Position numbers and translations under genes: made by a program
In this document: positions 23 to 18,256 of the stretch, in pieces
Numbering within the stretch: position 1 is the stretch's first letter
How the letters are laid out: every line of letters begins with the position of its first letter
NCBI GenBank assembly: GCA_902773295.1
Contig: CACYDT010000058.1
Location: 1-32,705, forward strand
Direction of reading: 5' to 3'
Source: an uncultured Veillonellaceae bacterium
GTDB taxonomy: Bacteria > Bacillota > Negativicutes > Selenomonadales > Selenomonadaceae
DNA length: 32,705 nucleotides
The notes under the pieces: generated by a model
The model's database searches: none
What the model saw: only the letters and a program-made list of their open reading frames with translations
What the model was told of the DNA's origin: nothing

Positions 23-58
23 TAAGTTCATTATAACATTGTTTTAAATAATTTTAAA
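23..58 (-). promoter_or_regulatory. Possible promoter facing out of the left edge
   Basis: On the minus strand an AT-rich stretch contains TATAAT (30-35) preceded by TGT (36-38), which is an extended -10. A weak TTTAAA (53-58) sits 17 bases upstream as a possible -35. It lies downstream of the VWA gene stop and would drive a gene to the left of the window. The rest of positions 1-92 is AT-rich with no supported gene. Confidence 0.4.
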
Positions 59-92
59 TAGTTTGATTATATTTATTTACTATATCCCTGCT

Positions 93-872
93 TCACTTGT
101 TCCAGTCCTCGCTGATGCTGCCTCTTTCCCGCACTTCGCTGGCCGCTGCCTCCATACGGGAGAACGATTCCCGGATGCCTGCTTTGTCATGCGTATAATT
201 CACAGCATGACCGGCGCTGATCCCTATGGAGGACGCTTCTTCCACAGAATCGATATTGGCTCCCATGAAGACGTAGTTCCAATGATATTTCTCGGTTGTT
301 TCCTGGATCAATGCCTTCACGGCTGCCTTGTCATATTCCTTGCTGTCGTTTTCCTTTCCGTCCGTCATGATCATGAACAGAACGCGCCGTTTTGCAGGAC
401 AGATTCCCTCCTTCTCCATCCTTCCGTTGACATCCATGACAGTCCTGCCCACGGCATCCAGCAATGCTGTCATGCCGCGTGCATAATATTCCTTCGATGT
501 CATTTCCGGCACCTTCCGGATGTCAACAGCATTCACGATTTTCTCGTACTTGTCGTCAAACAGCACCGTTGTTACCTCGGCAGTTCCTTCCTCCTTCTTC
601 TGTTTTTCCAGGAAGGAATTGTATCCGCCGATCGTATCGTCCGCGAGCGCGCTCATGGAACCTGAGCGGTCAAGAATGCAGATGATCTGCACAGGCTCAG
701 CCGTAGTTTCGTCGCAGCGTGCTGTGTGCTCATGCTGCAGGAGGACATGTTCCCTGACCTCCTTTGCGGGCGGCTTCTCCTGCGGAGGAGGCAATACATT
801 TGCAAGGCATGCCCAGCTGCCTGCCAGCAGGAGCATCATGGAAACCAAAAAGATCCGAAACATCCTCTTCAC
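93..872 (-). CDS. Secreted von Willebrand factor A (VWA) domain protein
   Basis: 259 aa. The N-terminus is a Sec signal peptide: a basic start, a hydrophobic core at residues 5-20, and a likely cleavage after the Ala near residue 24. After a Pro/charged linker a VWA domain starts near residue 60. The metal-ion site (MIDAS) looks complete: D68-x-S70-x-S72, T135 in a GMTALLDAVG segment, and D171 in an MTDGKEN segment. VWA domains of this kind bind protein partners through a divalent cation. The partner and role here cannot be read from the sequence. The chosen start is GTG; an ATG three codons later (863) is an alternative, with AGGTG seven bases upstream. The gene follows the two-component pair after about 100 bases, so co-regulation is possible but unproven. 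No lipobox or anchor was seen, so the product is probably periplasmic or exported. Confidence 0.8.
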   Translation of the reverse strand: MKRMFRIFLVSMMLLLAGSWACLANVLPPPQEKPPAKEVREHVLLQHEHTARCDETTAEPVQIICILDRSGSMSALADDTIGGYNSFLEKQKKEEGTAEVTTVLFDDKYEKIVNAVDIRKVPEMTSKEYYARGMTALLDAVGRTVMDVNGRMEKEGICPAKRRVLFMIMTDGKENDSKEYDKAAVKALIQETTEKYHWNYVFMGANIDSVEEASSIGISAGHAVNYTHDKAGIRESFSRMEAAASEVRERGSISEDWNK

Positions 873-11418: not shown

Positions 11419-11616
11419 TCACGTGCTCTCCCGCCTTGTTCTCTGATAGACCAGGACAAGGCGCACCACAAACAGGACAATCCAGATGGTGAACGTGACA
11501 AGATAAACCTTATCAATGATTGACATGGCATCAAAGTCAATCCCCATCAGAATCCATATCGCCATTCCAAGAATCAGGCCATCCATCACCTTGATGGATT
11601 TCAGGGTTTCCTTCAT
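11419..11616 (-). CDS. Small two-TM membrane protein, unknown function
   Basis: 65 aa. Two predicted membrane segments: about residues 12-26 (GLILGMAIWILMGID) and 37-57 (VYLVTFTIWIVLFVVRLVLVY), with a basic C-terminal tail. Its ATG overlaps the stop of the preceding secreted-protein gene as ATGA, so translation is coupled, which is good evidence that the gene is real. I do not recognise a family. Its place between a secreted protein and a peptidoglycan amidase suggests a role at the cell envelope, but that is inference from position only. Confidence 0.7.
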   Translation of the reverse strand: MKETLKSIKVMDGLILGMAIWILMGIDFDAMSIIDKVYLVTFTIWIVLFVVRLVLVYQRTRREST

Positions 11617-12152
11617 TCTGCCACCGCCTCCATGAGGATAATCTGCATAGGTTGTTCCTCGACGACGCGCTTCACAAAGGTATAGTCACGCTGGATATCC
11701 GCTCGTTTCAGGCGCGCAGCCAGGATTTCCGGGGCAGAGACATCCAGCCTCTGGAATGCCTCCGCCAGATAGTCCATGCCATTCTCCGTTGCCGGGTAGC
11801 CAAAAGCAATGTTGATGCATGCGAAAATGGACATCATCTTCTTTCTGGCCTCCTCGGAAACATCCCCCCGATGAGCAAACACGAGATTGGATATCTTTCC
11901 CTCCCCATTCACATGGATCACCATCGAGGCCGTCGGATCTATCTCGGCAATGTATGCCTCATAGTCTCCCTTGGTGCTGTGCGTGGAATAATCGGCAATG
12001 GGGTATTCAGAAACGCCGTTATATGCTTCCACAAAAGAATCCAATGTCATCGTGTCATGCAACTGCACCTTGGTTTCCTGCGCATGCGCCGTCACAGCAA
12101 ACAAGCAGATTCCCATGAGCATCATGGAAAAAATCAAACGCATCCTTTTCAT
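11613..12152 (-). CDS. Secreted protein of unknown function
   Basis: 179 aa. A clear Sec signal peptide (basic MKRMR, hydrophobic core, cleavage after TAHA near residue 24). The mature part is a single mixed alpha/beta domain with no motif I recognise: an acidic/aromatic start (SFVEAYNGVSEYPI), a strand pair with MVIHVNGEGKISNLVFAHRG, and a helical second half. It probably acts in the periplasm. AGAGG lies nine bases before the ATG. The next gene overlaps its stop (ATGA). Operon partners are envelope proteins. Confidence 0.75.
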   Translation of the reverse strand: MKRMRLIFSMMLMGICLFAVTAHAQETKVQLHDTMTLDSFVEAYNGVSEYPIADYSTHSTKGDYEAYIAEIDPTASMVIHVNGEGKISNLVFAHRGDVSEEARKKMMSIFACINIAFGYPATENGMDYLAEAFQRLDVSAPEILAARLKRADIQRDYTFVKRVVEEQPMQIILMEAVAE

Positions 12153-12197
12153 TCAGAACAACCTCTTTTCCTTCCAAGCACATAAACCATCTATGAA

Positions 12198-12731
12198 TCA
12201 CCTTCCATCATCATAGAGCGACCGGCTCCAGCCCAAAGCCTCGGCCTCAGCCATCGCGCTTTGCCGGATTTCTTCCCGGTAGTCCCGGATATCCTGCTGC
12301 GCAGCCCGGAGATCCGCTGTCTCGCAACAGTAGCTTGCCCCACGCATATTGTAATCGTCCACAAGCTGCATGAATTCTCTTACGGCAGATTCATTGCCAT
12401 GATTGAGACATTCCTTCATAGCATCCATGCGGATTTCCTGCATGAAAATCCAACGCAGCTGATCCCGGTTCAAAATATGCCCGTTCCCGGACGGCGGCTT
12501 CGACACGGGAAACGGCAGACCGTAGGATTCTTGCCGATCCTGTTCTGTCATGCCGTGACGATTCCAAAGGTCAACCGCCCCTAGGGACAGCGGACGTACA
12601 ATGAGGACAAAAACGGAAAGAAACACAGCCACCACCGTCCATTGATAGGCACGATTGCCTCCCACATGGGACACCAGGAACTCCGATGCCCATTGGCGGA
12701 TCTTTTCCGCCTTCCCCTTCTTCGCCGCCAT
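12198..12731 (-). CDS. Single-TM protein of unknown function
   Basis: About 177 aa. A Lys-rich cytoplasmic N-terminus, one membrane segment (about residues 32-51, WTVVAVFLSVFVLIV), then an extracytoplasmic part with mostly helical, charged sequence and three Cys (one CC pair) that could form disulfides. No family recognised. Start uncertain: ATG at 12731 gives a natural N-terminus (MAAKKGKAEK), ATG at 12749 is also possible, and the TTG at 12773 is only about six bases from the predicted transcription start. It is the first gene of the envelope operon, directly behind a consensus promoter. Confidence 0.7.
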   Translation of the reverse strand: MAAKKGKAEKIRQWASEFLVSHVGGNRAYQWTVVAVFLSVFVLIVRPLSLGAVDLWNRHGMTEQDRQESYGLPFPVSKPPSGNGHILNRDQLRWIFMQEIRMDAMKECLNHGNESAVREFMQLVDDYNMRGASYCCETADLRAAQQDIRDYREEIRQSAMAEAEALGWSRSLYDDGR

Positions 12732-12778
12732 TCTCACGCCTACCACCATCCGCGCAAATCCACGCAAATTCAATCAAG

Positions 12779-12861: not shown

Positions 12862-14112
12862 TTATGTTTTATCGGAAATTTTTTCCATTTCCTGGGCCGC
12901 GCCCAAAATGCCGATCACGGCATGCTCCAAGGTCAATCCCCCCTGCAAATAAACGTGATAGGGAGGACGCAAGGGTCCGTCAGCACTGAATTCTATGGAT
13001 GCTCCCTGAACAAAAGTACCTGCCGCCATGATGACCTGGTCAGCATAGCCGGGCATATCCCATGCCTCCGGCGCAGCGAAGGAATCCACGGGGGAATACT
13101 TCTGTATGCCGCGGCAGAACGCCGTGAGCTTCTCCGCCGAACCCAGCTCTATGGCCTGGATGATGTCCCCTCGTTGTTCCTCCGGCAAAGGATTCGTCCG
13201 GTATCCCAGACGGGAAAAGAGGCCTGCGGCAAAAATTGCCCCCTTGATGGCCTGCGCCACCACATGCGGGGCAAGGAAAATCCCTTGGAACATCCAGCGG
13301 TTATTGGCAAGGCTGGCTCCCAGCTCATCCCCCATACCAGGAGCAGTCAGCCGATAAGATGCCAGCTCCACCAGATCCGTTCTTCCGACGATATAGCCGC
13401 CCGTCGGGGCGATGCCGCCGCCGGGGTTCTTGATGAGGGAACCTGCCATGAGATCCGCCCCTGCTTCCAGCGGCTCTTTCGTATCGACAAATTCCCCGTA
13501 GCAATTATCGACAAAGCAAACGCAGTCCGGCTTGACCCGCTTGACCTCTGCCACAATCTCCCCAATGTCGGAAACCGTAAGGGGCGGCCTCATGCTGTAG
13601 CCGCGGGAGCGCTGGATGAGCACGAGCTTCGTGGAAGGCTTCAGCACAGAGGAAATCCCCCCCATATCCACCCTGCCGTCCACCAGTGGAAGCTCATCAT
13701 AAAGAATCCCGAACTCCTTCAGGGAGCCGGGGCTTGGGTTATCATAACCGATTACGGTCTGCATCGTATCGTAAGGCTTTCCCGTCAGCGACACAAGCTC
13801 ATCCCCCGGCCGCAGAATGCCGAAAAGCGCCGTTGCAAGAGCATGCGTACCGGAAACGAACTGCGTGCGCACCAAGGCACGCTCCGCCCCAAAGATTTTG
13901 GCGTACAGCTCTTCGAGTTTCCCACGCCCGATATCGTCATAAGCGTAGCCGGAGGTTGTATTGAAATGAGCCTCCGATACTTTGCATTCCCTCATGGCAT
14001 TGAGTACCTTCAGAGTATTTGCTTCGGCAACTTCATCCACTTTGCGGAAAAAAGGTGCGGATTCCTCCCATATCTGCTGTTTCAAATCCATTAAATCCTT
14101 CGAGAATTCCAT
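12862..14112 (-). CDS. PLP-dependent YnbB-type protein (methionine gamma-lyase / aluminum resistance family)
   Basis: 416 aa. A fold-type I PLP enzyme of the Met_gamma_lyase / aluminum resistance protein family. Visible features are the phosphate-binding stretch SGTHALATALFG (88-99), Asp202 in FVDNCYGEF, which should contact the cofactor ring nitrogen, and the probable Schiff-base Lys228 in GSLIKNPGGG. The substrate is not established for this family; the names methionine gamma-lyase and aluminum resistance are inherited from distant or indirect evidence. The ATG follows directly after the hflX stop (TAGATG) with AAGGAG nine bases upstream. The hflX-ynbB pairing is also found in Bacillus subtilis (ynbA-ynbB). 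No glnR/glnA follows here; a terminator does. Confidence 0.9.
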   Translation of the reverse strand: MEFSKDLMDLKQQIWEESAPFFRKVDEVAEANTLKVLNAMRECKVSEAHFNTTSGYAYDDIGRGKLEELYAKIFGAERALVRTQFVSGTHALATALFGILRPGDELVSLTGKPYDTMQTVIGYDNPSPGSLKEFGILYDELPLVDGRVDMGGISSVLKPSTKLVLIQRSRGYSMRPPLTVSDIGEIVAEVKRVKPDCVCFVDNCYGEFVDTKEPLEAGADLMAGSLIKNPGGGIAPTGGYIVGRTDLVELASYRLTAPGMGDELGASLANNRWMFQGIFLAPHVVAQAIKGAIFAAGLFSRLGYRTNPLPEEQRGDIIQAIELGSAEKLTAFCRGIQKYSPVDSFAAPEAWDMPGYADQVIMAAGTFVQGASIEFSADGPLRPPYHVYLQGGLTLEHAVIGILGAAQEMEKISDKT

Positions 14113-15909
14113 CTAGCCCTGCTCCTTTATCCTATATTTCATGAATGCATCCTTCTTCGAATTGGGAAGGCAAACTTCCAGAAGCGTTCCCTGCTCTGTG
14201 TACTCCGTGGAACGAATCGCGTTCAGGTGATGGAGCGCTGTGACCATCCGCCCCTCGTGGAAGGGAACCAAAAGTGTCATGCATACCTGTCTATCCAAGA
14301 AAAATTCTTCCAAGCGCTTCTTCAGTCCATCCAGATTCCTTCCGTCACGCGCCGAGATGAAAATCCCGTCCCGATCGCGCAAAAGCTGCTCTTTCCGCTT
14401 TTCATCCTCGAGGCAGTCGGCTTTGTTGAATACATAGAGTGTCGGCTTTGCCTCTGCGTCCAGCTCTTTCAATACCTCAATAACAGAAGCGATCTGACGT
14501 TCCGCCTCTGCATTGCTGCAATCCACTACATGGAGGAGAAAGTCCGCCTCCTGCACATCCTCCAACGTGGCACGGAATGCCGTCACCAGCATATGGGGAA
14601 GCTTCTGGATAAATCCCACGGTGTCCGTCAGCAGGATCTCCTGTTTCTGCGGAAGGAAAAGATGGCGCGTTGTCGGGTCCAATGTGGCAAACAACTGATC
14701 TTCCACATAGACCTCCGACCCGGTCAGCGCATTCAGCAGCGTAGATTTCCCTGCATTCGTATACCCCACAAGAGCCGCCATCGGGATGCGGGATTCCCTG
14801 CGACGGGATCTATGCAATTTGCGCCTTTGGCGCATGCTTTCCATCTGTTCTTCAATGTCATGGATCCTGCTGTGAATGCGGCGGCGATCCACTTCCAATT
14901 TCGTCTCGCCCGGTCCTCGCGTGCCAATGCCTCCGCCCAAGCGGGAAAGCACAAGTCCCTGTCCGCCCAGGCGCGGCAATCGGTATTTCAGCTGCGCGAG
15001 CTCCACTTGGAGCTTGCCTTCCCGAGATCGTGCCCGTTGAGCAAAAATATCGAGAATCAATGCGGTCCTGTCAATGACCTTGATGCCCAATCCCTGTTCC
15101 AGATTGTTCTGTTGGGAAGGCGTGATTTCATCATCAAGAATCAGGAGATTGGCCTCCATGTTCTGCACTGCCATGCCGATTTCCTCTACCTTGCCCCTGC
15201 CAAGGAAAAAGGCAGTGTCAGGACGTTCCTTGCGCTGGGTAATCTGTCCAAGGACAATTGCGCCGGCGGTTTCTGCGAGTCGGGCCAGCTCCTCCATGGA
15301 AGCTTTTGCCGACCAAGACCCGCCAGACTCTATGCCCGCGAGGATCGCTCTTTCTTCCGTGATCCTCGTCTCTTTCATGGCATGACGTCCGAGTTTTTTG
15401 TTGATGACAGTGATAAGCCTGACCATATTGACGCTGTGAAGGACAGCCTCGCTTGCCGGGCCGAAACATTGCACCTCCGGCATCCCGTCCGGCTGCAATT
15501 CCCCGGAAAAGAACCCCATGCTGCCAACGATTTCCTTCCCGTCCCTGCCAATGGCGGCCATGACATCAAAGCGCATGTGCCGCAGGGAGGAAAGATCCGG
15601 ATCGCTCAGGACAGTATCCCCGCTGGGATGCGTGTGGACACAGCGAGTGCCGGAGAGCCGATGCTCCGATCGTGCCTTAAACTCCGGAAGATCCACCGTG
15701 CCGGCATCCCCTACCGACACAACCGAGATCCTGCCCTGTCGATTGATGTAGACCGCCACTTCACGCCCCAGCGCCTCAGTGATATCCAGCATGCGCCGGT
15801 TCAGCTCATGGGTGGAAAGCTGGGATGCCGGAACAGATAGCTCATACAGTGCCTGAAGCTGCTCCAGAAGCGGCCTCTTTATGTTGCCGAGTTCCCCATG
15901 TACCTCCAT
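14113..15909 (-). CDS. hflX: GTPase HflX with N-terminal RadC/JAMM-like domain
   Basis: 598 aa, about 170 longer than E. coli or Bacillus HflX. The C-terminal two thirds are a normal HflX: N-terminal subdomain (about 185-375, with GQITQRKERP and the GGGIGTRGPGE loop), G1 GYTNAGKS (382-389), G3 DTVG (429-432), G4 NKAD (495-498). HflX splits stalled or heat-damaged 70S ribosomes. The first ~165 residues resemble a JAB1/MPN metalloprotease fold: HTHPSGD at 92-98, followed by Ser102-x2-Asp105, the spacing of the RadC JAMM motif (H-x-H-P-S-G-D ... S-x2-D), and Glu50 on a preceding strand as the possible catalytic acid. Whether it binds zinc or cuts anything is unknown. GTGAGGA before the ATG supports the start, 12 bases after the NA37 gene. 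Confidence 0.95.
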   Translation of the reverse strand: MEVHGELGNIKRPLLEQLQALYELSVPASQLSTHELNRRMLDITEALGREVAVYINRQGRISVVSVGDAGTVDLPEFKARSEHRLSGTRCVHTHPSGDTVLSDPDLSSLRHMRFDVMAAIGRDGKEIVGSMGFFSGELQPDGMPEVQCFGPASEAVLHSVNMVRLITVINKKLGRHAMKETRITEERAILAGIESGGSWSAKASMEELARLAETAGAIVLGQITQRKERPDTAFFLGRGKVEEIGMAVQNMEANLLILDDEITPSQQNNLEQGLGIKVIDRTALILDIFAQRARSREGKLQVELAQLKYRLPRLGGQGLVLSRLGGGIGTRGPGETKLEVDRRRIHSRIHDIEEQMESMRQRRKLHRSRRRESRIPMAALVGYTNAGKSTLLNALTGSEVYVEDQLFATLDPTTRHLFLPQKQEILLTDTVGFIQKLPHMLVTAFRATLEDVQEADFLLHVVDCSNAEAERQIASVIEVLKELDAEAKPTLYVFNKADCLEDEKRKEQLLRDRDGIFISARDGRNLDGLKKRLEEFFLDRQVCMTLLVPFHEGRMVTALHHLNAIRSTEYTEQGTLLEVCLPNSKKDAFMKYRIKEQG

Positions 15910-15921
15910 GCTTCCTCACCC

Positions 15922-16923
15922 CTACGCACGATTGACAATATTGGAAATATGCTTCAATGTGATGGACAAGGTTCCATCCCCGTCGTTGTTGAATTCCACA
16001 TACTCTGTATTGTCAAAATAATCCGTCGGGATGGTAAGCTCGATTCCCGTATCCGTCTTGAGCTTGTGCCTTCCCACTTTTTTCAATGTGGCTTCCTTGT
16101 CCATGTGAACCGGCTCGGAACATCCGGCTTCCTGGAGCTCTGCCTCGTAATCCGCCTGCATGGAGGGATTGTCCCTGAAAATCTGCTTCCCTGCTCCCTG
16201 CATATCCAATGTATCTGAATGCTCCATCTGCTCGGCAATATAGTTTTTGGCTGCGGCAGCTGCAGCAACTTCGTCCTGTCCGTAGGCACAGGCGATTTTC
16301 GCAGCAGCTTTTGTGATATGTTTCATCGCCTCTTTCTGGGAAGGCGCCCGGCTGCATTCCAGCAGAATCTCGGAAAATACGCAAACGCTGTTCCCATCCA
16401 TGGTATAGCGTTTTCCCAGGAAAGAAATTTCCCCGCTCCCAACATCGACAAAAGCAAACTCATCCATTTTTTGGCCGGGATTCGGCATCATAGAAGCATG
16501 ATGGACGATTTCATTGCGGAACCCGGTTTCTGTCTGGCTGGCCTGATGCGCATATACCATATGGCTGTTGCATTTGAGAAGAGCGAGTTTCCGTGCATCA
16601 TCCACGCGCATATCGCAACAGATGAAATCTGCGGATGCCATCTCCTCGACATGCGCGTATGCATCTTCCAGTATATGGGCAAGCTCCTTGGAAAAAGAGA
16701 TGAAATCCACCTCTCCCCGAACATAACGATCCATGGATTCCTTGAAAGAACTGTCCTCATAAAAGACACCGGGACATGCGTCCTGGCTTGCCAAGGATTT
16801 CTCGATATGCTTCAGGAGAAATGTCTCGACACTGTCAGACAGCTCAAGCTCTGCATCAGAGTATACAGCCTGCCCGGAATTGAAATCCAGGATATGAAGA
16901 ACGGCCTTGTCAATTGCAATCAC
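15922..16923 (-). CDS. Nucleoid-associated protein, NA37/YejK family
   Basis: 333 aa from a GTG start. GGGGGAGG lies seven bases before this GTG and the GTG overlaps the upstream stop as GTGA, so longer in-frame starts (to 16980) are unlikely. The pattern fits the NA37 family: an N-terminal strand-helix unit (IDKAVLHILD), a helical middle with DFISFSKELAHIL, and a C-terminal beta part with KTDTGIELTIP and a final LSITLKHI. E. coli YejK binds DNA in the nucleoid. In Gram-positives the role is not settled. Ala-rich stretch about residues 230-240. Partner of the unrecognised gene upstream, to which it is translationally coupled. Confidence 0.8.
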   Translation of the reverse strand: MIAIDKAVLHILDFNSGQAVYSDAELELSDSVETFLLKHIEKSLASQDACPGVFYEDSSFKESMDRYVRGEVDFISFSKELAHILEDAYAHVEEMASADFICCDMRVDDARKLALLKCNSHMVYAHQASQTETGFRNEIVHHASMMPNPGQKMDEFAFVDVGSGEISFLGKRYTMDGNSVCVFSEILLECSRAPSQKEAMKHITKAAAKIACAYGQDEVAAAAAAKNYIAEQMEHSDTLDMQGAGKQIFRDNPSMQADYEAELQEAGCSEPVHMDKEATLKKVGRHKLKTDTGIELTIPTDYFDNTEYVEFNNDGDGTLSITLKHISNIVNRA

Positions 16924-17609
16924 TTCGTTTCCTCCCCCGCCTTCCGGCGAATCTCCTGCAAATAGGGCAGCATATGGCATTCCAGGTTCGCTTCCAGTTC
17001 CGAAAGCTCATTGGAATCGAAAGAATATGTGACCACTGGGATGTTTCTGATACGTGCCTCCCCGAAAAATTCATCACGGAAGATATTATAATAGATTGTG
17101 AAATTGCTGGCAATGCCGAAATCCACATAATCGAAGACAATATACGACCCGTTGTTGATGCGGACAGGCTCCGACGGACGGATGAAAAGCCGGAAGCCCT
17201 CTGCCTCCGAAGGAAGATTCTTTCCATACTCCCATTCCATGACCCCCTTTTCCAGAAGCAGGCTCGTCACTGTCTTAGGGTTGAATTCCGCCAGGTCGCG
17301 AAGCATCGGCTCAAAATGCTGGTGCAAGAGCTTCTCGAATTCCCGGAAATTTCCCGTGACGAACTCGATATGGCAGAACTCGATGAGCCCGATCTGCACC
17401 CTTACCTTGTATTCCTTGGTCTCTTCATGGAAATAGACGGTAGCGCTGCGGTGCGTATCCTCGTTCGCATAACCATAAAGATCATAGATATCTCCCTCAA
17501 CGCGCAGGATTTTCTGCAGATGGAACCCAAACCATTCCGAAGGCAGTTCCTCAAGGTATTTCCAAGCGGCAATCTCTTTCTCCACACGTTCTTTCGTTGC
17601 ATCTTTCAA
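16920..17609 (-). CDS. Conserved-looking protein of unknown function
   Basis: About 229 aa. I do not recognise a family. Sequence is soluble, rich in aromatic and acidic residues, without signal peptide or membrane segment: an N-terminal helix (KERVEKEIAAWKYLEEL), a beta-rich middle (SATVYFHEETKEYKVRVQIG) and a C-terminal half with YIVFDYVDFG. The open frame reaches 17738 inside pyrE, but no good start lies there. GGGAG lies nine bases before the TTG at 17609, which also clears the pyrE hairpin. Its stop overlaps the GTG of the NA37 gene, so the two are likely to work together or at least be co-expressed. It follows the pyr operon by 71 bases. Confidence 0.75.
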   Translation of the reverse strand: MKDATKERVEKEIAAWKYLEELPSEWFGFHLQKILRVEGDIYDLYGYANEDTHRSATVYFHEETKEYKVRVQIGLIEFCHIEFVTGNFREFEKLLHQHFEPMLRDLAEFNPKTVTSLLLEKGVMEWEYGKNLPSEAEGFRLFIRPSEPVRINNGSYIVFDYVDFGIASNFTIYYNIFRDEFFGEARIRNIPVVTYSFDSNELSELEANLECHMLPYLQEIRRKAGEETK

Positions 17610-17640
17610 GCCATGGATCTCCCTTCCCAGTGACAATTTG

Positions 17641-17665
17641 AAAGGGCGTCGCTTCCGCAACGCCC
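17641..17665 (-). terminator. Hairpin at the end of the pyr operon
   Basis: On the minus strand GGGCGTTGC-GGAA-GCGACGCCC (17644-17665) makes a 9-bp GC-rich stem with one wobble pair and a GGAA tetraloop. Only TTT follows directly, then CAAATTG, so it may be a leaky terminator or an RNA 3'-end stabiliser. It lies 15 bases past the pyrE stop and before the unknown gene. Confidence 0.6.
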
Positions 17666-17680
17666 GAAAACATCGGTTCC

Positions 17681-18256
17681 TTATTTTCCTGTCCGTCCCC
17701 TCTTGGTCATGGGGATGCCTTCTTTGCAAAGAGGACATTCCTCCGGGGCATACGTTTCCACATCCATGTGCAGGAGCGCAGTGCAGGGGATGTCCCCGAA
17801 CTTCGCCTTTCCTCCGCTTCGATCCACGAGCATGCTGACGGCCACGGGAATCCCCCCATGCTCCTTCACTACGTCGATGACCTCCTGGATAGAGCCGCCC
17901 GTGGTCACGACATCCTCCACAATGAGCACACGCTCCCCTTCATGGAGGCTGAACCCGCGGCGGAAGGTCATTTTTCCGTTTTCCCGCTCCGTGAAGATGG
18001 CACGGGTGCCGAGAGCCTTGCCCGTCTCATGGGCGAGAAGCACCCCGCCCGTAACAGGCCCCACCACGGTCTCGATGTCCGCATCCTTGAACTTCTCCGC
18101 CATGGCCTCGCAAAGGCGCTGGGTGTATTCCGGATGCTGCAATACATTGAACTTCTCCACATAATGCGGGCTGTGAAGCCCGGAGGTCAGGAGAAAATGA
18201 CCGTCCATGATAGCATTTGTCTTGATGAGCAAATCCTTGACTTCTTGTTCTGTCAT
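17681..18256 (-). CDS. pyrE: Orotate phosphoribosyltransferase
   Basis: 191 aa. Joins orotate to PRPP to give OMP, the fifth step of UMP synthesis. The PRPP-binding motif VLIVEDVVTTGGS spans about 110-122. The C-terminus carries the PEECPLCKEG segment typical of the longer Firmicutes/Thermus-type PyrE, a possible metal-binding CxxC. The ATG follows the pyrF stop immediately (TGAATG), with GGAGG spaced ahead of it. Last gene of the pyr operon; expression depends on the PyrR leader about 9 kb upstream. Confidence 0.98.
   Translation of the reverse strand: MTEQEVKDLLIKTNAIMDGHFLLTSGLHSPHYVEKFNVLQHPEYTQRLCEAMAEKFKDADIETVVGPVTGGVLLAHETGKALGTRAIFTERENGKMTFRRGFSLHEGERVLIVEDVVTTGGSIQEVIDVVKEHGGIPVAVSMLVDRSGGKAKFGDIPCTALLHMDVETYAPEECPLCKEGIPMTKRGRTGK

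Follow-up and report, generated by a model that had tools for sequence, protein, structure and literature searches.

The hflX gene of an uncultured Veillonellaceae bacterium encodes a complete HflX preceded by an additional N-terminal domain that is predicted to belong to the JAMM/MPN fold. The protein, here called JAMM-HflX, is, as far as sequences can tell, a widespread variant of HflX that is unannotated in the libraries scanned (Pfam and NCBIfam) and possesses a conserved site of putative catalytic type. Chances are roughly even that the first ~160 residues form a true metallohydrolase domain of RadC-like JAMM type, which HflX brings to the 50S subunit and which cuts a peptide or isopeptide bond there.

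HflX is known to split ribosomes and to bind their 50S subunit. So far, it has been studied as a ribosome-splitting GTPase, and variation at its N-terminus as short extensions. No description of a JAMM domain in HflX was found among the open-access papers listed, as judged by titles and abstracts, and the word HflX is absent from the main text of a 2006 survey of prokaryotic JAB domains (PMC1779556). If the site is active, current models of HflX would miss an activity in the genomes that bear the domain (41 of 193 with an intact site in the phylum sample described below).

Architecture of the window HflX

The window, i.e., the whole stretch of DNA analysed, comprises 32,705 nucleotides and contains the following features of hflX:

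14113..15909, minus strand: hflX, 598 aa, a JAMM domain and then a complete HflX (ORF and translation, TIGR03156, Pfam)
15826..15909, minus strand: family-specific N-terminal strand and helix, residues 1–28, outside the JAMM core
15433..15825, minus strand: JAMM/MPN core, residues 29–159 (AlphaFold2, structure matches, hhalign)
15760..15762, minus strand: Glu50, predicted to act as the general acid/base, at the start of strand 50–56 (position, predicted strand, conservation)
15637..15687, minus strand: basic loop, residues 75–91, consensus GRRSxxRLSGIRC (pLDDT dip, conserved Arg)
15595..15636, minus strand: HTHPSGDTVLSDPD, residues 92–105, with the predicted metal ligands H92, H94 and D105, and Ser102
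15373..15426, minus strand: last helix of the domain, which connects it to HflX, residues 162–179 (predicted helix 162–179)
14305..15351, minus strand: HflX core (TIGR03156 match, E 2.0e-145)

The initial annotation had named this minus-strand open reading frame HflX and had placed its residues 1–165 at 15415–15909; the position is correct, and the identity is borne out by a TIGR03156 match at residues 187–535 in the NCBIfam scan, which scored 481.8 bits (cut-off 216.75). In Pfam, the usual HflX regions (PF13167, PF16360 and PF01926) were matched from residue 203 on. The HflX core is complete, with the N-terminal, middle and GTPase regions and the C-terminal part, and from its family membership the protein would be expected to bind and split ribosomes. 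The ~180 residues ahead of the core have no Pfam or NCBIfam annotation at curated thresholds. At their very beginning, AlphaFold2 predicts a strand (residues 3–5) and a helix (residues 12–23), and within this segment G5 and Y22 are present in at least 90% of the alignment A3, which consists of the window protein and 38 relatives.

The JAMM motif and its conservation

The JAMM motif has been defined as EXnHS/THX7SXXD (PMC300881), and it is matched in the window HflX by E50, H92-T-H94, seven further residues, S102 and D105, all located exactly where the initial annotation had put them. A motif of this length might also arise by coincidence, the HTHP stretch then lying in an unrelated domain, and the window protein alone gives only a Prok-JAB match at E 0.044 and no meaningful PDB sequence match. 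Such a chance resemblance is scarcely credible, as the pattern H[ST]H-x7-S-xx-D appeared in just 27 of 200,000 shuffles of residues 1–180, and conservation over the phylum sample as well as the fold and profile matches speak against it. The window has 127 stop-to-stop frames with a length of 100 aa or more, and the pattern occurs in one of them, the hflX frame itself. Across all loci up to L250, 180 of 2,867 such frames contain it, of which 173 also have the HflX P-loop; the remaining seven (L021, L053, L068, L157, L158, L159 and L173) are HflX frames as well, either truncated, frameshifted or with a P-loop that the P-loop pattern overlooked.

All five residues (E50, H92, H94, S102 and D105) are invariant in A3, the relatives of which came from short-pattern scans, one pattern including HTHP. 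A broader collection comprised 245 loci with an HflX core, 183 of them with a JAMM-bearing N-terminus, and 136 non-redundant domains were left after dropping entries identical over the last 150 residues. Leaving out the 49 that came from pattern scans (again with HTHP in one pattern) gave a set of 87 that had been recovered through searches with whole proteins, with profiles or for the HflX family. The five motif residues are retained in 129 of the 136 domains and in 80 of the 87; a loss of the His and Asp residues in most homologues, which the initial annotation had named as evidence against its proposal, is thus not what is seen. Loss of a single residue was found in none of the 136 domains, and each of the seven degenerate ones misses at least two of the five. 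Position 50 is Glu in 132 of the 136, including every one of the 129 domains with intact ligands. Since the corresponding Glu in AfJAMM is the acid/base residue and not a metal ligand (PMC300881), its persistence beside intact ligands favours hydrolysis over a purely structural metal.

Substitution rates were compared with four loci. Against L051 and L052, dN and dS (given as pairs) were 0.14/1.31 and 0.13/1.22 for the domain and 0.13/1.55 and 0.14/1.75 for the core. Against L066 they were 0.31/2.04 for the domain, dS of the core being saturated, and against L053, where a comparison was possible for the domain only, 0.26/1.62. These values point to purifying selection on the JAMM domain like that on the HflX core, and are rough with dS above 1.

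Predicted fold

The AlphaFold2 model of the JAMM domain, built from the window domain and 38 relatives, reached a pLDDT of 91.1 and a pTM of 0.88. In the full-length HflX model (pLDDT 81.8, pTM 0.65), the secondary structure of the domain is nearly unchanged. E50 opens strand 50–56, H92 lies near the end of strand 88–93, and D105 starts helix 103–112. In AfJAMM, beta2 bears the Glu, beta4 the two His and alpha2 the Asp (PMC300881). The layout of elements in the model is compatible with this arrangement.

The initial annotation had proposed a comparison with RadC and JAB1/MPN folds, and the predicted fold is indeed JAMM/MPN: 49 of the 50 PDB structure matches listed are JAMM/MPN proteins or chains of complexes holding them, RadC included. 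The remaining one, 2kks, is titled only 'protein DSY2949'. The best match among those listed was PfuJAMM1 (5ld9, Z 7.3, rmsd 3.4, 109 aligned residues), and Rpn11, RadC, Csn5, AMSH and Sst2 were further members of the list. Z values of the matches listed ranged from 5.4 to 7.3, which is middling by the tool's own note, with model ranges mostly 28/29..159/164 and 4–18% identity over the aligned residues. Foldseek gave RadC in its first row, as a weak hit (best E 3.6e-3, TM 0.28/0.38) with unrelated rows also present. Taken from the models, the fold and site of the JAMM domain are predicted with high confidence.

Relation to RadC and other JAMM families

Profile comparisons placed the domain closest to RadC. 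With hhalign, the alignment against 25 RadC JAB domains from the phylum sample yielded a probability of 92.35% and a score of 46.8 over 78 columns (residues 34–113), whereas 20 versions with shuffled columns scored 10.2–30.0 (0.08–34.8%) and the reversed alignment 13.2. A comparison with 11 Prok-JAB domains gave a score of 17.7 (0.9%), just over the shuffle range of 8.3–17.1; RadC against Prok-JAB itself gave 51.9%. A profile of alignment A2 also found a RadC protein in genome G406 (E 8.2e-6), which Pfam confirmed as RadC with UPF0758_N. When the 39 members of A3 were scanned one by one with Pfam at E up to 1, 35 touched Prok-JAB and 20 RadC.

Family cut-offs were not reached in these scans. 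For RadC (PF04002), the best of the 39 A3 members scored 21.9 against 22.1 bits, and the window protein had neither a RadC match nor a UPF0758_N/helix-hairpin-helix part at E up to 1. For Prok-JAB (PF14464), the domain alone scored 14.1 against 25 bits, and it had no match in NCBIfam, PHROGs or PADLOC. A PDB sequence search with the single sequence returned chance matches only, e.g., GroEL, and with the 39-row profile a BMC-H fusion came out on top (E 0.12), followed by AMSH/Sst2 (E 0.23–2), none of them significant. The profile kinship with RadC together with a score under the RadC cut-off leads us to class the domain as a putative RadC-like JAMM that does not pass as RadC. The window genome has a separate RadC gene and a separate Prok-JAB protein.

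The kinship with RadC also brings in one of the two main rival readings, in which the JAMM site would act, in the manner of RadC-like nucleic-acid processing, on RNA targets at the ribosome such as a tRNA end, mRNA or rRNA and not on protein. RadC is the nearest family, RadC-type JAB domains have been proposed as nucleic-acid processing enzymes, and RadC-clade JAB domains have been argued to lack the groove for the ubiquitin tail (both from sections of PMC5512222), which counts against a peptidase and is the reason for counting RNA processing among the main rivals. The conserved R80, R84 and R89 in the loop next to the site, found in 115, 102 and 125 of the 129 intact domains, might be taken in the same direction; block 71–80 of the model, which overlaps this basic loop, is of low confidence (pLDDT 56). 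However, the activity of RadC is itself a hypothesis, a nuclease JAMM is not established in the literature consulted, and if the domain is bound to the ribosome, its Arg residues could be there just for docking. Moreover, three degenerate domains (L162, L163 and L168) keep the RLSGLR stretch despite the loss of their site, so part of the loop may dock on the ribosome. Processing of RNA is regarded as unlikely.

Distribution of the domain

In the family sample, HflX scored over the cut-off in 53 of 111 genomes, and genomes without the domain were mostly without HflX. The HflX frame measures 460–671 aa in 51 of the 53, the domain being matched in 43 of these and indicated by length alone in eight. 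The other two HflX (G018 and G087, 442 and 448 aa) have just 23 and 30 residues before the core and no domain. Of the 121 genomes in the order sample, 54 had a profile match to the domain, and so had 150 of the 250 in the class sample, weak matches such as G232 and G285 included; the class-sample matches listed lie nearly all in frames of ~500–700 aa, apart from a few fragments. In one genome of the class sample (G125:C1:3554441-3554965 and 2319757-2320281), two HflX-length frames of 627 and 620 aa both match the JAMM profile.

In the phylum sample, HflX is present in 193 of 249 genomes, and at least 48 of these 193 have the domain, 41 with an intact and seven with a degenerate site. The number 48 is a lower bound made up of 47 found by profile and one strongly degenerate form (G455) noticed through its long frame; further degenerate domains may have escaped notice, in particular in HflX frames beyond those listed. 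Holders include records of Selenomonas, Mitsuokella, Megamonas, Propionispira, Anaerovibrio, Sporomusa, Pelosinus and Phascolarctobacterium, and a Fusobacterium HflX of 600 aa, annotated simply as GTPase HflX, has the JAMM domain as well. The assumption that long HflX forms exist elsewhere has therefore been confirmed across Negativicutes, other members of the phylum and Fusobacterium. The domain has probably been part of HflX in this phylum for a long time.

The initial annotation had also suggested a search for the domain outside HflX. Profile matches were found in 49 of the 249 phylum-sample genomes, of which two were not HflX: G406 contributed its RadC, and G504 a protein of response-regulator/HD type (E 8e-4). 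No free-standing copy was found in the phages searched. A plasmid search returned two records, both from Fusobacterium; in one of them the matched region is annotated as HflX, in the other it has no annotated feature. A search of viral contigs returned a single match, again HflX.

Some single records deserve mention. In a 218-kb record of Fusobacterium animalis deposited as a plasmid (L250, 4998-6800), JAMM-hflX adjoins shikimate kinase. The match among viral contigs (L249, 5001-6785) is a JAMM-HflX on a contig of a viral collection, probably cellular DNA filed as viral. A Selenomonas metagenome hflX (L053, near 4550 and 5663) is split over frames, its JAMM part forming a stretch of 185 aa. 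It was considered as a free-standing domain and rejected, as the HflX core continues in other frames; the split is most likely an assembly or sequencing frameshift in the record.

Degenerate and domain-less HflX

Related HflX proteins exist without the domain, so the JAMM domain is an accessory of HflX. Seven domains are degenerate (L162, L163, L165, L166, L167, L168 and L177; 7 of the 136 and 7 of the 87). L165–L167 retain E, S and D, and L168 and L177 retain one motif residue each. A tree of HflX cores was calculated from 13 chosen rows of L001–L130 and the cores of L131–L250, identical cores being merged, L173 and L186 being dropped for short cores and L243, which is cut by a contig end, being set as intact by hand. 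Its 126 cores comprise 60 with an intact domain, seven with a degenerate one and 59 without the domain. The tree is weakly supported, with 34 of 123 inner branches starred. The presence of the domain changes 16 times on it, in either gains or losses, four to five of the changes being forced by starred branches, and the state switches between intact and degenerate at least two times.

Two domain-less HflX (L220 and L237) cluster with the degenerate L168 (fork 95), and two others (L184 and L185) with the Anaerovibrio L094 (fork 100). The domain-less HflX of G018 and G087 sit beside the Anaerovibrio one as well. We read such nested cases as probable losses, which in one lineage presumably followed a decay of the site. 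In at least two lineages, a domain with a destroyed site has been retained, so that it either serves some non-catalytic purpose or is in decay.

This leads to a further explanation, a non-catalytic ribosome-contact domain that helps HflX to dock on or remodel the 50S subunit, any metal being structural or a stress sensor. The persistence of seven of the 136 non-redundant domains without a site fits such a role, and MPN chains of eIF3 and EMC, which are scaffolds, are among the structure matches listed. In mycobacterial HflX, the extension raises the efficiency of splitting and disorders rRNA (PMC12493154). On the other hand, the Glu is no metal ligand in AfJAMM (PMC300881), yet E50 accompanies all 129 sets of intact ligands, and the grouping of L220 and L237 with L168 would fit a course in which the site decays first and the whole domain disappears afterwards. 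A pure contact role is accordingly possible, if rather doubtful. The 'dead structural domain' that the initial annotation had offered as an alternative may hold for a minority (the 7 of 87 without a site), but 80 of the 87 keep the site.

Gene neighbourhood

The stretch immediately upstream of hflX (15922-17738, minus strand) encodes a nucleoid-associated protein of 37 kD (NA37/YejK-like; PF04245, E 1.2e-40) and, overlapping it, an ORF of 272 aa without a Pfam or NCBIfam match. Relatives of the former are found upstream of hflX in 37 of 80 named loci and relatives of the latter in 29 of 80. Directly after hflX follows a Met_gamma_lyase (PF06838) gene (12862-14112, minus strand), with relatives in 66 of the 80 loci. 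Two ORFs of 179 and 191 aa at 11613-12773 (minus strand) had no Pfam or NCBIfam match.

Proposed function on the ribosome

For the preferred reading, a RadC-like JAMM metallohydrolase carried by HflX, we infer the metal, the hydrolysis, the substrate and the position on the ribosome. HflX would bind a stalled or empty 70S ribosome, split it and stay on the 50S subunit. The active site of the JAMM domain would thereby come to the intersubunit face of the 50S, probably towards the A-site side. At this place, E50 would activate a water bound to a metal held by H92, H94 and D105, S102 would steady the intermediate, and the outcome would be hydrolysis of a peptide or isopeptide bond, either in a nascent chain or in a protein associated with the 50S subunit. 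The proposed position derives from the mycobacterial extension, which touches uL16 as well as helix 38 of the 23S rRNA and extends to the H69–H71 region (PMC12493154); as the JAMM domain is located at the same end of HflX, such a place between the subunits and towards the A-site side would be expected for it, too. No neighbouring gene hinted at a substrate in a context comparison limited to eight neighbours in the window.

A more specific proposal is that JAMM-HflX is a rescue factor with two activities, in which the GTPase splits the stalled ribosome and the JAMM site then releases or trims, by cutting a bond, what remains on the 50S subunit, e.g., a nascent chain or the tail of a ribosomal protein. 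In this specific form the proposal is rather improbable. If true, it would provide a bacterial JAMM hydrolase borne by the ribosome, much as Rpn11 is borne by the proteasome, and JAMM-HflX would be a candidate for the factors ending bacterial ribosome-associated quality control. It has been described as unclear which factors split stalled 70S ribosomes for quality control, end the addition of poly-alanine and release the polypeptide (PMC8373112), and JAMM-HflX is a testable candidate for this open step. From the same source, a deletion of hflX and ssrA in B. subtilis caused no synthetic growth defect, which argues against an essential role of B. subtilis HflX in quality control. Natural HflX proteins with an intact site, with a broken site and without the domain offer built-in controls for such work.

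Comparison with known systems

Ordinary HflX proteins of the E. coli, Listeria and Bacillus type have ~420–440 aa and are not known to carry a JAMM domain. They share with the window HflX the complete HflX core and differ in the N-terminal domain, which is absent from 59 of the 126 HflX chosen for the tree. Mycobacterial HflX resembles the window protein in having additional sequence at the same end, but its extension amounts to 39–58 residues as compared to ~180, and the parts of the 2025 review drawn on here mention no JAMM domain (PMC12493154). According to the same review, N-terminal extensions are also present in several Clostridium and Paenibacillus species.

With the JAMM/MPN+ peptidases (AfJAMM, PfuJAMM1, AMSH/Sst2, Rpn11 and Csn5), the HflX domain has the EXnHS/THX7SXXD motif and the predicted fold in common, whereas identity is only 4–18% over the aligned residues of the matches listed. 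To RadC, the likeness extends to the order of the motif elements, RE aligning on the RE of RadC and HTHPSGD on HNHPSGD in hhalign. In contrast to the scanned RadC, which has a UPF0758_N/helix-hairpin-helix part, the domain of HflX is joined to a GTPase.
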